A program made the translations under genes and the position numbers. From NCBI RefSeq assembly GCF_022227845.1, contig NZ_JAJNQN010000022.1, positions 1 to 64,000 of the forward strand: a stretch of 64,000 nt of DNA. The letters run 5' to 3'. The stretch comes from Ectothiorhodospira lacustris (GTDB lineage: Bacteria > Pseudomonadota > Gammaproteobacteria > Ectothiorhodospirales > Ectothiorhodospiraceae). Positions 14,870 to 20,041 of the stretch are shown here, one piece after another; position 1 is the stretch's first letter; every line of letters begins with the position of its first letter. The notes under the pieces are model-generated. The model saw only the letters and a program-made list of their open reading frames with translations. It did no database searches and had not been told where the DNA came from.

Positions 14870-15499
14870 TCAAACGATGGATGGGGTCCTGGCGGTCTGC
14901 AGCTGGTGCCGTCGGACCCCGGCCCGGGCCAGGCGGGATTGCAGGGCGGGCAGTTGTGCTTCCAGTTCAGGCACCACGGTGGTGCGCACCTCCAGGGCCA
15001 CGTTGGTGGCCAGCACCCGGTACAGGCTGTCCCAGGCGGCCTCGCCGGAACCCGGCACACCCGTGATCGCCGGATAGTCTTCGGGCAGGGCCTTGATGTC
15101 CAGGCCCACCCAATCGGTGAAGGGCAGCACCCGGGTCAGGCGCTCGGGATAGACGCCGGCGGTGTGCAACCCCACCTTGAAGCCCATTTTTCGCACCTGG
15201 ACCATGGCCCGTGCCAGCCCGCCCTGCAGGGTGGGCTCACCGCCGCTGAACACCACGGCATCCAGCAGCCCGCGGCGCCGGGACAGAAATGCCGTCACCT
15301 GGTCCCAGCCCACCGGGGCATCCGTCCGTGTGGGCTGTAGCCGGGCATTGTGGCAATACCCGCAGCGCCAGGGACAGCCCTGGCAGAAGATCACGGCCGC
15401 CAGCTCACCGGGATAGTCGATGGTGGTGAGGGGAGTCATTCCCCCCACCCGCAGCGATTCGGCCGCCGTGGCCGTCACGGTACATTCAGCGGTTTGCAT
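14870..15499 (-). CDS. nrdG: Anaerobic ribonucleotide reductase activating enzyme NrdG (radical SAM)
   Basis: 209 residues. The radical-SAM cluster motif is CPWRCGYC (Cys42, Cys46, Cys49), followed by FSGGEPTLQ for SAM binding. It uses SAM and a 4Fe-4S cluster to place a glycyl radical on NrdD. Its start overlaps the preceding small glycyl-radical gene by 14 bases, so activator and radical carrier are translationally coupled. Confidence 0.95.
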   Translation of the reverse strand: MQTAECTVTATAAESLRVGGMTPLTTIDYPGELAAVIFCQGCPWRCGYCHNARLQPTRTDAPVGWDQVTAFLSRRRGLLDAVVFSGGEPTLQGGLARAMVQVRKMGFKVGLHTAGVYPERLTRVLPFTDWVGLDIKALPEDYPAITGVPGSGEAAWDSLYRVLATNVALEVRTTVVPELEAQLPALQSRLARAGVRRHQLQTARTPSIV

Positions 15500-15674
15500 G
15501 GCTCGTGACGCCGGGTTCCTCGAAGTAGCGGCGCTGCGCGTGTTCCGACTGCTTGCCCTTGTTGAAGGCGGACACCGGGCGGTGATAGCCCATGACCCGG
15601 GTCCAGACCTCGCAGGGAGTGCGCTCTTCGTCGCTCAGGGTGGCCTCGGCAGGAGCGTGGTGGTTCGTTTTCAT
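15486..15674 (-). CDS. nrdD2: Separate glycyl-radical domain of anaerobic ribonucleotide reductase
   Basis: 62 residues from ATG 15674, with AAGGA eight to ten bases upstream. The core TRVMGYHRPVSAFNKGKQSE is the C-terminal glycyl-radical segment normally found at the end of NrdD; Gly29 in RVMGY is the likely radical site. The main NrdD chain ends 40 bases earlier, right after its zinc module, in another frame. So catalytic and radical-bearing parts are two polypeptides, comparable in idea to YfiD/GrcA repairing pyruvate formate-lyase. I recall similar short annotated NrdD proteins in other genomes, so this is probably real rather than a sequencing error. The symbol is descriptive. Confidence 0.82.
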   Translation of the reverse strand: MKTNHHAPAEATLSDEERTPCEVWTRVMGYHRPVSAFNKGKQSEHAQRRYFEEPGVTSHANR

Positions 15675-15714
15675 GATTTGGTGTCCTTGGGAAGGGTTGG
15701 AGAAGGCGACTGAC

Positions 15715-17751
15715 TCAGGCCACGGCAGCGGGCTGGGCCTGCTTGCGGGCGATGATTTCCTGGTCGCAATGCGGACAGAAAGTGTGCTCACCGGCGATGT
15801 AGCCGTGCTTGGGGCAGATGGAAAAGATCGGTGTGATCGTGATGTAGGGCTGGCGGAAGTTTTCCAGGGCCCGGCGCACCAGGCGCTTGCAGGCCTCCGG
15901 GGAGGAGATCTGCTCGCCCATGTAAAGATGCAGTACGGTGCCGCCGGTGTAGCGGGTCTGCAGTGCTTCCTGGCGGGACAGGGCCTCGAAGGGATCGGCG
16001 GTGAAACCCACCGGCAGCTGGGAGCTGTTGGTGTAGTAGGGGGCATCCGGGGTGCCGGACTGGATGATGCCCGGATAGCGCTTTTGATCCTCGCGGGCAA
16101 AGCGGTAGGTGGTGCCCTCGGCCGGGGTCGCCTCCAGGTTGTACATGTTGCCGGTCTCTTCCTGGAATTCCAGCATCCGGGCGCGGACATGATCCAGCAG
16201 GCGCAGGGCCATGGCGTGACCGGAACCGGTGGTGATGTCCTCGGCATCATCGGTGAAGTTGCGGATCATCTCGTTGATGCCGTTGACGCCGATGGTGGAG
16301 AAATGATTGCGCAGTGTCCCCAAGTAGCGCCGGGTGTAGGGGAACAGCCCGTCCTCCATGTGCCGGGCGATGACCTTGCGCTTGATCTCCAGACTGTTGC
16401 GGGCCAGTTCCAGTAGCCGGTCCAGTCGGGCCAGCAGACCGGCTTCGTCGCCCCGATGGGTGAAGCCCAGGCGGGCGCAGTTGATGGTGACCACACCCAG
16501 GGAGCCGGTCTGTTCCGCCGAGCCGAACAGGCCGTTGCCCCGCTTGAGCAGTTCCCGCAGGTCCAACTGTAGCCGGCAGCACATGGAGCGCACCATGTTG
16601 GGCGACAGTTCCGAGTTGAGGAAATTCTGGAAATAGGGCAGACCGTACTTGGCGGTCATGGCGAACAGCCGTTCCGTGTTGTCGCTTTCCCAGGGGAAAT
16701 CCGAGGTGATGTTGTAGGTGGGGATGGGGAAGGTGAAGATCCGCCCCCGGGCGTCCCCTTCGGTCATCACCTCGATGTAGGCCCGGTTGATCATGTCCAT
16801 CTCCGCCTGCAGGTCCCCGTAGCAGAAAGGCTGTTCCCGGCCGCCGATGACGGGCACCTGTTCGCGCAGGTCTTCCGGGCAGACCCAGTCGAAGGTCAGA
16901 TTGGTGAAGGGCGTCTGGCAACCCCAGCGGGACGGGACGTTGAGGTTGTAAATCAGTTCCTGCATGTACTGCTTCACCTGGGCGTAGTCGAGCCGGTCCA
17001 CGCGCACAAACGGGGCCATGTAGGTGTCAAAGCTGGAAAAGGCCTGGGCGCCGGCCCATTCGTTTTGCAGGGTGCCCAGGAAATTGACGATCTGGCCCAC
17101 GGCGGAGGAGAAGTGGCGGGGCGGCGCGGCCTCCACCTTGCCCGGCACGCCGTTGAAGCCTTCCACCAGCAGGGTGCGCAGGGACCAGCCGGCGCAGTAG
17201 CCGGCCAGCATGTCCAGGTCATGGATGTGGTAGTCGCCGTCCCGGTGGGCCTGGCCGATCTCCGGCGGATAGACGTGGTTGAGCCAGTAATTGGCGATCA
17301 TCTTGCCGGAGGTGTTGAGGATCAGGCCGCCCAGGGAATAGCCCTGGTTGGCGTTGGCGGCCACCCGCCAGTCGGAACGGTCCAGATATTCGCTGATGGA
17401 GGCGTCCACGTCCACCAGGGTCCGGCGGTCGGCCCGCAGGGCCTTGTGCTGTTCCCGGTAGACGATGTAGGCCCGGGCGGTAAGCAGGTGGTTGGCGCTG
17501 ATCAGGGTCTGCTCCACCACATCCTGGATGTTTTCGATGTCCGGGCACTGACCCTGGGCAAAGCGATGGGCCAGCACCTTCACCACCTGGGCGGTGAGCA
17601 GGTTGGCCTCATGGTCTCCGAATTCCCCGGTGGCCTGGCCGGCCCGGCGGATGGCGGACTCGATGCGGACGGCATCAAAGGGCAGACGGCGGCCGTCACG
17701 CTTGATGACCTGGGTGGGCAGGGCGGGCATTCGGGAAGGCAGGGGTTCCAT
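15715..17751 (-). CDS. nrdD: Anaerobic ribonucleoside-triphosphate reductase, catalytic chain
   Basis: I start at ATG 17751 (AAGGA upstream), giving 678 residues; an in-frame ATG at 17805 adds 18 unlikely residues. An N-terminal ATP-cone (about 10-100, VIKRDGRRLPFDAVRIESAI) regulates activity. The body contains class III motifs such as YHIHDLD, NFLGTLQNEWAGAQAFSSFD and the strand ITITPIFSICPKHGY, and the chain ends with the zinc module ICPKHGY...FCPHCD. The RVxGY glycyl loop that should follow is missing from this chain and is encoded by the next gene. It reduces ribonucleotides without oxygen, so this host grows anaerobically at least in part. Confidence 0.93.
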   Translation of the reverse strand: MEPLPSRMPALPTQVIKRDGRRLPFDAVRIESAIRRAGQATGEFGDHEANLLTAQVVKVLAHRFAQGQCPDIENIQDVVEQTLISANHLLTARAYIVYREQHKALRADRRTLVDVDASISEYLDRSDWRVAANANQGYSLGGLILNTSGKMIANYWLNHVYPPEIGQAHRDGDYHIHDLDMLAGYCAGWSLRTLLVEGFNGVPGKVEAAPPRHFSSAVGQIVNFLGTLQNEWAGAQAFSSFDTYMAPFVRVDRLDYAQVKQYMQELIYNLNVPSRWGCQTPFTNLTFDWVCPEDLREQVPVIGGREQPFCYGDLQAEMDMINRAYIEVMTEGDARGRIFTFPIPTYNITSDFPWESDNTERLFAMTAKYGLPYFQNFLNSELSPNMVRSMCCRLQLDLRELLKRGNGLFGSAEQTGSLGVVTINCARLGFTHRGDEAGLLARLDRLLELARNSLEIKRKVIARHMEDGLFPYTRRYLGTLRNHFSTIGVNGINEMIRNFTDDAEDITTGSGHAMALRLLDHVRARMLEFQEETGNMYNLEATPAEGTTYRFAREDQKRYPGIIQSGTPDAPYYTNSSQLPVGFTADPFEALSRQEALQTRYTGGTVLHLYMGEQISSPEACKRLVRRALENFRQPYITITPIFSICPKHGYIAGEHTFCPHCDQEIIARKQAQPAAVA

Positions 17752-17906
17752 GAAGACGGGATCCTTTGGGCTACTAGATATGGTGCTGCGGATTATAGCA
17801 GGCACAATATTTTGTGAAAGTCCTGGATCCAGTCCCCCGGCAAAGCCGGTCGGCGCCTCGATGGATCAGCAGATATCATGAGGTCCACGTCGGGCAGGCC
17901 CGGTGC

Positions 17907-19217
17907 TCAAAGTTGTTCCATCACGCAGCTGGCCAGTTCCGCCGCCAGGTTGTTGCCCCAGAAAATACCCTTCGGCGTCAGGGAATAACGACCGTCCTTG
18001 ACGGGGTTCAGGAGCGCCTGATCCACCCGCTGCTCGCATCGCGCCAGCAGGTCCGCATGTGCCACTGCCGGCACCGTGTCCGGCGTCACATGGCCGAACT
18101 GGATGGCGCCGATGAATCGATATAGGGCATCATAGGGCGGACGGGTGGTCATGCCCTCGCGGTCGGTGAGCCTCTCTAAACTCTGGGCGTAAGCCTCCGG
18201 GGACAAGGGGTTCATGAGCATCATGCCGGCCAGTCGCCCGCCTGCACCGGCGCCCAGGGGCAGGGTGTCTCCACCCTGGTAGCGCAATGCCACATACCGG
18301 TAACGGTCCCTGCCGGGTCTGACCATCTTGGTCAGTTCCAGAACCTCGAATCCCTGCCGTTGACCGGCTTCCAGAATCCGTGAAAACAGTTGCCATTCCC
18401 GGGCCAGGGTCCGCGGAGTCTGGGCGGCGTGGGCCATGTGTTCATGGGCCAGCCGGCTCTTTTCCCGGATCATCAGGGAATACAGGGAAAAACCCGCCAG
18501 ATCCAGCTCGGCGATGGCGGCAAGGTCGTGGGCCAGTTCCCCGTCGCTCTGCATGGGGTAGTGGTAGATCAGGTCCATGCCCAGGTTGTCCAGCCCCAGG
18601 GCGCGGAAACGTCGGATATGGGCCTTGGCCCATTCCCCGTTTTTCAACCGCCCCAGCAGTTCCCGGCCGCGATCATGGAAGGTCTGCACGCCCAGACTGA
18701 GACGGTTGACGCCTTCCGCCATGACCGCCCTCAGCTTGTCTTCATCTAGATCGGAGAGGCTGCTTTCCAGGGTGATTTCCACATCATCCGTCAGTTGAAA
18801 ATGTGTCCTGAGTGCCTGCAGGATCCGCTGCAGGTCGGGCGTGGACAGGGTGCTGGGGGTTCCGCCGCCGAAATATACGGCCCCGTAACAGCCATCACGG
18901 ACATAGGGGATCCTGGTGACGGCTTCCATTTCTCGGATCAGCAGATCGGCATAGCGGGACTCGGGGCTGCCCTTCATCCGGCGCATGTTGCAGAAATGAC
19001 AGATCCGGCGGCAGAACGGGATGTGCAGGTAAATGGCCCTAGGGCGCGGGTCCACCGTCCGGTTCAGCAGGTGCTCACCCAGGGTCGCGGTGCCCTCGCA
19101 CAGGGGCTGCAGCGGCATGATGGCGTCATGATGGCTGCGCTTGCGCCGGGGGTAGGGCAGATCCTCGCTGAAGGCAGGCATGGACAGACCGGGCATGTCG
19201 GTGGCGATGGTGGTCAT
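17907..19217 (-). CDS. hutW: Radical-SAM heme-degrading enzyme HutW/ChuW (anaerobilin synthase-like)
   Basis: 436 residues from ATG 19217, which overlaps the hmuV stop (ATGA). The cluster motif CRRICHFC (Cys69, Cys73, Cys76) has the CxxxCxxC spacing, followed by YFGGGTPSTL. Overall it resembles HemN, but its place in a heme uptake operon points to HutW/ChuW, which opens the heme ring anaerobically by radical methyl transfer and frees iron. A HemN (coproporphyrinogen dehydrogenase) role is the alternative, made unlikely by the neighbours. Confidence 0.88.
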   Translation of the reverse strand: MTTIATDMPGLSMPAFSEDLPYPRRKRSHHDAIMPLQPLCEGTATLGEHLLNRTVDPRPRAIYLHIPFCRRICHFCNMRRMKGSPESRYADLLIREMEAVTRIPYVRDGCYGAVYFGGGTPSTLSTPDLQRILQALRTHFQLTDDVEITLESSLSDLDEDKLRAVMAEGVNRLSLGVQTFHDRGRELLGRLKNGEWAKAHIRRFRALGLDNLGMDLIYHYPMQSDGELAHDLAAIAELDLAGFSLYSLMIREKSRLAHEHMAHAAQTPRTLAREWQLFSRILEAGQRQGFEVLELTKMVRPGRDRYRYVALRYQGGDTLPLGAGAGGRLAGMMLMNPLSPEAYAQSLERLTDREGMTTRPPYDALYRFIGAIQFGHVTPDTVPAVAHADLLARCEQRVDQALLNPVKDGRYSLTPKGIFWGNNLAAELASCVMEQL

Positions 19218-20041
19218 GCGGCATGCTCCCGGTGAGCGGTGGCGCAACCCAGGCCGTAGCGCATGCGGACCCAGGGGCATCCCGTGAGACTGTCCTTTTC
19301 CACCAAGCATTCCACCCCCCAAGCGTGGGTGATGGTTTCGGCGCGCATGACCTGGGCCGGCGTGCCGCTGGCCACCACCTTGCCGTCCTTGAGCACGGTG
19401 ATATGGTCCGCGTAGGCGGCGGCCAGATTCAGGTCGTGCAGCACCACCAGGATGGTTCGGCCCCGGGCGGCGTCCACCCGCAGCAGTTCCATGAGCCGCA
19501 GCTGATGCCTGACGTCCAGGGCCGAGGTGGGTTCATCCAGCAGCAGCAGGCCCGGCTGGTCCGGGCCGGTGTCATGGACCTGGGCCAGTACCCGGGCCAT
19601 CTGCACCCGCTGGCGTTCCCCGCCGGAAAGACTGCGGTAGTCCCGGCCCGACAGGTGCCATACACCGGCCCGGTCCAGGGCCTCGCGGACGATCCTGGCG
19701 TCCCGGTCCGGCGTGCGATGGGGCAGGCGACCCATCTCCGCCACTTCCCAGGCGGTGAGCGGGAACGTGACCACGTTTTCCTGGGGCAGCACGGCCCGGC
19801 AGCGGGCCAGGGCATGGGGACACCACTGATCCAGTGCCTGTCCGCACCAGGTGACCTCGCCGCTGCTGGGCGGCATATCTCCGGCCATCACAGACAGTAG
19901 TGTGCTCTTGCCGGCGCCGTTGGGCCCGACCAGCACGTGCACGCTGCCTGGGTGGGCTTCCAGCCCGGCCTGATCCAGCAGACGCCGTCCTCCCCGCTCC
20001 ACCACCAGATTGGAAATCCTTGCCAGGGCCTGTGTGTTCAT
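19214..20041 (-). CDS. hmuV: Heme ABC transporter ATPase HmuV
   Basis: 275 residues from ATG 20041, overlapping the hmuU stop by four bases. Walker A GPNGAGKS, signature LSGGERQRV and Walker B LLLLDEPTSALD are intact. The C-terminal stretch resembles HmuV/BtuD-like importers. It powers transport of heme from the periplasm through HmuU. In-frame sequence upstream to 20461 is antisense to hmuU and not used. Confidence 0.93.
   Translation of the reverse strand: MNTQALARISNLVVERGGRRLLDQAGLEAHPGSVHVLVGPNGAGKSTLLSVMAGDMPPSSGEVTWCGQALDQWCPHALARCRAVLPQENVVTFPLTAWEVAEMGRLPHRTPDRDARIVREALDRAGVWHLSGRDYRSLSGGERQRVQMARVLAQVHDTGPDQPGLLLLDEPTSALDVRHQLRLMELLRVDAARGRTILVVLHDLNLAAAYADHITVLKDGKVVASGTPAQVMRAETITHAWGVECLVEKDSLTGCPWVRMRYGLGCATAHREHAA

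Follow-up and report, generated by a model that had tools for sequence, protein, structure and literature searches.

Organization of the nrdD locus

The window (the whole 64,000-nt stretch of Ectothiorhodospira lacustris DNA that was analysed) carries on its minus strand a class III ribonucleotide reductase (RNR) operon in which the catalytic chain is divided between two genes. The features of this operon are listed below.

15715..17751, minus strand: nrdD, class III RNR catalytic subunit without a glycyl-radical loop, 678 aa (open reading frame and translation; PF13597 positions 2–531; NF006126 at 1131 bits, over the cut-off)
17443..17712, minus strand: ATP-cone domain of NrdD, residues 14–103 (PF03477)
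16573..16587, minus strand: finger-loop motif S-M-C-C-R of NrdD, residues 389–393 (from the sequence; invariant in 29 aligned rows)
15766..15816, minus strand: C-terminal zinc module of NrdD, C646-x2-H649 ... C659-x2-C662 (from the sequence; invariant in the same 29-row alignment)
15684..15688, minus strand: Shine-Dalgarno-like AAGGA of the small gene (from the sequence)
15486..15674, minus strand: small gene for the putative separate glycyl-radical subunit, 62 aa (translation; PF13597 positions 532–562, over the cut-off)
15588..15590, minus strand: codon for Gly29 of the small gene, the predicted radical site (aligns with Gly621 of T. maritima NrdD)
14870..15499, minus strand: nrdG, radical-SAM activase, 209 aa (TIGR02495, NrdG2, over its cut-off)

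NrdD terminates in ...CPKHGYIAGEHTFCPHCDQEIIARKQAQPAAVA, directly past the zinc module, and it retains the ATP-cone, the SMCCR finger loop and the zinc module itself, which presumably binds zinc as in homologous NrdDs: the missing part is the radical loop only. The translation of the small gene carries the segment RVMGYHRP, within which Gly29 lies. This gene is read in another frame from nrdD (start offset +1) after a gap of 40 nt from the nrdD stop codon, its AAGGA stands 9 nt 5' of the ATG, and it overlaps nrdG by 14 bases. The sequence-only reading had described exactly this arrangement of a split NrdD and a separate radical gene with its own ribosome site, and was correct on each point, as judged from the open reading frames and the division of PF13597.

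nrdD is preceded directly, and in the same orientation, by a radical-SAM gene (17907–19322) that is HemN-like on the basis of its CxxxCxxC motif only. An NrdR-box-like palindrome, CACAATATTTTGTG (17803–17816), overlaps the nrdD promoter region; by a window-wide count, a box of this kind 5' of nrdD is not beyond chance. FNR/Dnr-like boxes, TTGACCTCGGTCAA (L266, 5883) and TTGATGGGGGTCAA (L270, 5558), occur upstream of split nrdD genes, and anaerobic induction is suggested.

The small protein as the missing piece of NrdD

The 562 positions of PF13597 are shared out between the two products with neither gap nor repeat, both matches being above the Pfam cut-off. No further PF13597 match was found in the 3.28-Mb genome (49 contigs), and NrdD contains no second glycyl loop, the presence of which the sequence-only reading had singled out as capable of overturning its interpretation. 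With a read-through query, the small protein aligns with residues 614–645 of T. maritima NrdD (within a strong match, of which this is the weak second part), and Gly29 therefore corresponds to Gly621, which the structure paper gives as the radical site (PMC4493059). The hallmarks of a class III RNR are thereby distributed as follows: the PF13597 barrel with its finger-loop cysteine is present and superposes on solved NrdDs with Z scores of 29–34; the RVxGY loop is present, albeit on a second chain; and the radical-SAM activase is the NrdG of the operon, which is of the NrdG2 type (TIGR02495). Among the matches listed, the named locus closest to that of the window genome is from Ectothiorhodospira shaposhnikovii DSM 243 (86% for the small protein and 98% for NrdD). 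Compared with three close relatives across a core of 34 codons, the small gene of the window gives pN/pS values of 0 to 0.075, the differences being mostly silent (of all ten pairs compared in this analysis, seven gave a value).

A structure model was made of one artificial chain, read through the stop codon and the intergenic gap and aligned with 28 relatives; as a single fused chain, it is no test of two-chain docking. The mean pLDDT is 79.4: the loop region (711–750) averages 74–83 per ten residues, and the finger-loop region is poor. The model superposes on T. maritima 4u3e_B with a Z score of 33.6 (2.8 Å over 526 residues, the first and last aligned model residues being 108 and 746), and on T4 1h7b with a Z score of 32.2 (2.6 Å over 479 residues; 136 and 728). 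The predicted placement of the radical loop agrees with that in the one-chain enzymes, although the covalent linkage makes such agreement likely beforehand.

Distribution and evolution of the split

A search for the same split in related genomes had been proposed by the sequence-only reading, and the split does indeed recur, which also counts against the other refuting outcome that it had named, one uninterrupted frame: among 96 near-relative genomes (including that of the window), 16 match PF13597, of which 15 are split and one (G059) is one-chain. In a class sample of 369 genomes, 38 match (28 split, seven one-chain, and three partial or weak), and in a phylum sample of 398 genomes, 57 match: 12 split, 43 one-chain, one weak, and one, G604, that was read through two in-frame stops and is probably split. 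The three samples overlap in some genomes, and NrdD is absent from most genomes in each. Two complete split nrdD operons are present in another genome of the same genus (G003, contigs C33 and C39). At L171 (4912–7860) and L092 (A. palmeri, G179), an in-frame insert of ~930 nt lies at a similar place in nrdD, giving one open frame of ~1020 aa; the insert is probably an intein.

A scan of named genomes gave at least 574 relatives of the small protein, of which 80 loci were kept. In 76 of these 80, nrdD, the small gene and nrdG follow one another in that order and in separate frames; three have neither partner, and one has nrdG only. The scan pattern included the glycine, so these loci are unusable for measuring its conservation. 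Sulfuricurvum kujiense, which lies outside the Pseudomonadota, has a split plasmid operon; Acidiphilium and Actinomyces plasmids carry one-chain forms. The split operon on plasmid pHG1 of Cupriavidus necator H16 (H16_RS32680/32675/32670) includes a 66-aa gene that is called nrdD in the NCBI annotation, and the split explains why bacterial genomes are annotated with such tiny 'nrdD' genes. The C. necator enzyme was first reported by Siedow et al. (1999, J Bacteriol 181:4919). The H16 enzyme is described in the CH34 genome paper as essential for complete denitrification (PMC2864759), and the split operon therefore appears to work in vivo.

In a tree of the NrdD body, calculated from 124 of 154 rows (30 near-duplicate or frameshifted rows were left out), 109 split rows fall into one group with six one-chain rows inside it, corresponding to at least four changes on the tree found. 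A single split clade was not rejected by an AU test on 60 rows (p 0.517), and it is therefore possible that the one-chain forms of Acidiphilium and Actinomyces are re-fusions; on this evidence the split is old, and a single origin is possible.

Independence of the small gene from nrdD

Across 106 split operons, the small gene occupies all three frames relative to nrdD (frame 0 in 21, frame 1 in 38 and frame 2 in 47), and the gap between the two genes ranges from −56 to +298 nt. The start codons in these operons were chosen by a score that favours Shine-Dalgarno sites, and its 104 of 106 is therefore not independent evidence. In one genome (G704) the genes are unlinked: nrdD is solitary, and the small gene, immediately 5' of nrdG, is found ~9.1 kb away from it. 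A metagenome bin (L238) has the small gene and nrdG, with nrdD absent, and was not counted as evidence.

Additional copies were also found. Besides the usual operon, Magnetospirillum fulvum carries a second small gene (with an assumed GTG start), the stop codon of which lies 63 nt before nrdA, which is followed by nrdB; both copies are confirmed by Pfam. They differ by seven silent and three replacement changes over the 34-codon core, and the pN/pS of 0.11 points to purifying selection on the stand-alone copy also. None of the five other NrdD-positive relatives of M. fulvum has a second copy (55 genomes of the family), and an extra copy was seen in one of the 28 split genomes of the class sample. 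The small gene is carried by A. vinosum pALVIN01 (42 kb read) and A. tepidum pAt1 (6.6 kb read); within these stretches the annotation, which is incomplete according to its makers, shows no large nrdD. In bacterium BMS3Bbin13, a second copy lies in a phage-like region, where its neighbours resemble RecE, SSB and RecT and include an RNR gene of phage type. RUG13901 has two very similar copies, one in its operon and the other on a contig of 5.7 kb. A second match in A. palmeri, below the Pfam cut-off and near the end of a 7.1-kb contig, is a 60-aa open frame with no clear start and may be a remnant. A candidate free spare in B. japonicum was rejected, as its two places are near-copies of one operon.

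Phage copies

With the small protein of the window as query, IMG/VR yielded 64 viral contigs. NrdG was found in the flanks of none of the 64, and NrdD in one, L163. Searching the whole records of 46 contigs gave NrdD in L163 only, whereas two records contained a further, weak match of the tail-like kind; in the remaining 18, examined as complete records, there was no NrdD. A second scan gave 243 relatives, of which 80 were kept, 43 of these contigs being new; one of the new contigs, L318, has NrdD in its flanks. In total, 105 of 107 distinct viral contigs have no NrdD in what was examined (with 80 of the 243 second-scan relatives kept). No viral record is known to be 90% complete, and the absence of NrdD is therefore that of the record and is not proven of the virus: most of these contigs may be fragments, and NrdD could lie outside them.

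The position of Gly29 is occupied by glycine in all 64 first-scan contigs, which were found with patterns that left this residue out, and in all 135 fetched viral loci (27 contigs were counted twice, and one was fetched by an NrdD query). Ten neighbouring proteins were scanned: eight gave matches to families of phage structural, packaging or lysis proteins, one matched an SbcC-like family and one had no match. All seven small proteins scanned (that of the window and six viral) match the C-terminal part of phrog_4132 (P0001 with an E value of 2.5e-7), and two of them also match the NrdD-like phrog_487, weakly. PHROGs labels phrog_4132 as 'unknown function', and our reading provides a specific functional hypothesis for this phage family. 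Phage open frames at L115, L117, L150 and L153 (also L106 and L100) have an N-terminal cysteine cluster, and for four of five such frames scanned the PF13597 match extends into the zinc-module part (513–562 or 522–562); this cluster may stand in for the zinc module. In an annotated phage collection, eight of 50,697 records match, all at <60% identity and most inside annotated NrdD genes; the free small gene is therefore not seen in deposited phage genomes. Two viral loci, L143 and L161 (G820 and G833), have small-gene matches with TGA or very short open frames, and are possibly from phages with recoded TGA.

Comparison with known systems

The closest parallels are the spare parts of pyruvate formate-lyase, GrcA/YfiD of Escherichia coli and Y06I of phage T4. 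These too are small free proteins that end in a glycyl-radical loop, exist in a phage version and supply the radical site to a large glycyl-radical enzyme, as is proposed here. One paper describes the replacement logic for YfiD and T4 Y06I, regards these two as the sole validated spare parts and considers ones for other glycyl-radical enzymes possible (PMC8683613). The small protein is not, however, a member of the GrcA family, an assignment that was considered and rejected: it matches PF13597 of class III RNRs and not PF01228, the domain of the GrcA/YfiD type. Its own genome has no PF01228 match, and no pyruvate formate-lyase-type glycyl-radical enzyme was found there. It is also approximately half the size of GrcA/YfiD (62 aa versus 14 kDa). 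Moreover, the main enzyme here has no loop of its own, and the small protein should therefore be an obligate subunit and not a repair piece only, in contrast to GrcA/YfiD.

The one-chain class III RNRs of T4, T. maritima and E. coli (NrdD with NrdG) have the barrel, zinc module and radical loop in common with the enzyme described here, and some of them the ATP-cone too; the difference is that here the loop sits on a second polypeptide. Six cases of nrdD in pieces, involving introns, inteins and the fragmented nrdD of phiAS4, are reported among 128 phage genomes (PMC3653736); these arose through the insertion of elements or through fragmentation, the remaining pieces being retained, and that account describes no free glycyl-radical gene among them. 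In class I enzymes the radical likewise resides in a subunit apart from the catalytic chain (NrdB and NrdA, respectively), but NrdB is an unrelated, ferritin-like and oxygen-dependent protein (general background; PMC9669993). In the literature covered (titles and abstract openings, with few subscription papers), we found no description of a class III RNR with a free glycyl-radical subunit.

A proposed replaceable radical subunit

Oxygen destroys class III RNR through a chain cut at the radical glycine (PMC3019208, PMC2795772). We propose that NrdG would place the radical on Gly29 of the small protein, the loop of which would be seated in the NrdD barrel next to the finger-loop cysteines and would start catalysis like the C-terminal loop of a one-chain NrdD. 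In such a two-chain enzyme, scission at the glycine would cost a 62-aa piece only, and a fresh small protein could dock onto the intact 678-aa NrdD body; plasmid and phage copies, and those next to aerobic RNR genes, would then be extra supplies. What we observe is that there are two chains, that Gly29 is homologous to known radical glycines, that the small gene is widely conserved and independent of nrdD, and that many copies have no NrdD found nearby; we infer that the small protein is expressed, docks in trans, acquires the radical and is replaced after damage. It is probably a subunit that acts in trans, is replaceable and works in a GrcA/YfiD-like manner, and the extra copies of the radical part alone in phages, plasmids and some genomes suggest a replaceable component. 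Replacement after oxygen scission, which would fit the varied frames, the unlinking and the extra copies, seems the most attractive reason for carrying this part alone. Overall, we favour, with some reserve, a trans-acting radical subunit of a two-chain class III RNR, replaceable after scission and with the other copies as supplies. That such exchange operates in many bacteria, with the phage, plasmid and aerobic-RNR-locus copies as a repair supply for the host enzyme, is advanced more tentatively, as a possibility that falls a little short of an even case. Gene dosage, or a restart of class III RNR when conditions turn anoxic, would produce the same pattern as replacement.

The sequence-only reading had itself offered two views, a separable radical subunit and a fixed split of no special use. 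If the chains were co-translated, assembled once and never exchanged, with a fission that was neutral or aided expression and copies elsewhere that were accidents of gene transfer, most split genomes should have one copy adjoining nrdD; this is what is observed, the small gene standing between nrdD and nrdG in 76 of the 80 kept named loci (of at least 574) and bacterial extra copies being few (one in 28 split genomes of the class sample, none in the five M. fulvum relatives). This accounts well for the operon but not for the copies outside it: 105 of 107 viral contigs have the small gene with no NrdD in the flanks examined, differences are mostly silent where compared, the extra copy in M. fulvum adjoins nrdAB, and in G704 the genes are unlinked. 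We therefore regard a fixed split as rather unlikely, and the separable subunit as well supported by the three frames, the unlinking in one genome, and the stand-alone, phage and plasmid copies with no NrdD in the stretches examined.

The phage copies could also act as decoys or inhibitors, tying up the NrdG or NrdD of the host and redirecting its nucleotide metabolism, the operon copy being an ordinary subunit. Neither NrdD nor NrdG was found beside the small gene on most phage contigs, and at L090 it adjoins a phage-type RNR gene, as a decoy might; however, the glycine is kept in 64 of 64 first-scan copies, and in BMS3Bbin13 the 34-aa core is the same in the phage copy as in the host copy, with four silent differences. 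Both would be expected of a working part, making the decoy reading improbable. Sequencing error, or a frameshift or bypass, programmed or otherwise, giving one chain, has no observation in its favour and deserves virtually no credence; as a general explanation it is refuted by the three frames with gaps of −56 to +298 nt, the unlinked genes of G704 and the recurrence of the same three-gene order in the 76 of 80 kept loci. Counting against our preferred reading of a replaceable subunit are a probable class II RNR in the window genome and the scarcity of matches among the annotated phage records. If that reading is right, a phage family labelled 'unknown function' conceals a spare-part system for DNA-precursor synthesis; the operon is present in culturable bacteria such as C. 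necator H16, making the spare-part question directly testable.

A probable second split RNR in the window genome

The window genome has one further RNR catalytic gene: on contig C14 (L274, 1081–4109), a 754-aa class I/II RNR catalytic gene is followed by a 249-aa gene that ends in CxxC pairs. By sequence, the pair is probably a split class II NrdJa/NrdJb, and both oxygen-independent RNRs of this genome would therefore be split. In NrdJa/NrdJb of Pseudomonas aeruginosa the RNR catalytic chain is likewise in two genes, but in that enzyme of another class the separate part comprises C-terminal zinc-finger and IscU-like domains and not the radical site (PMC9669993).
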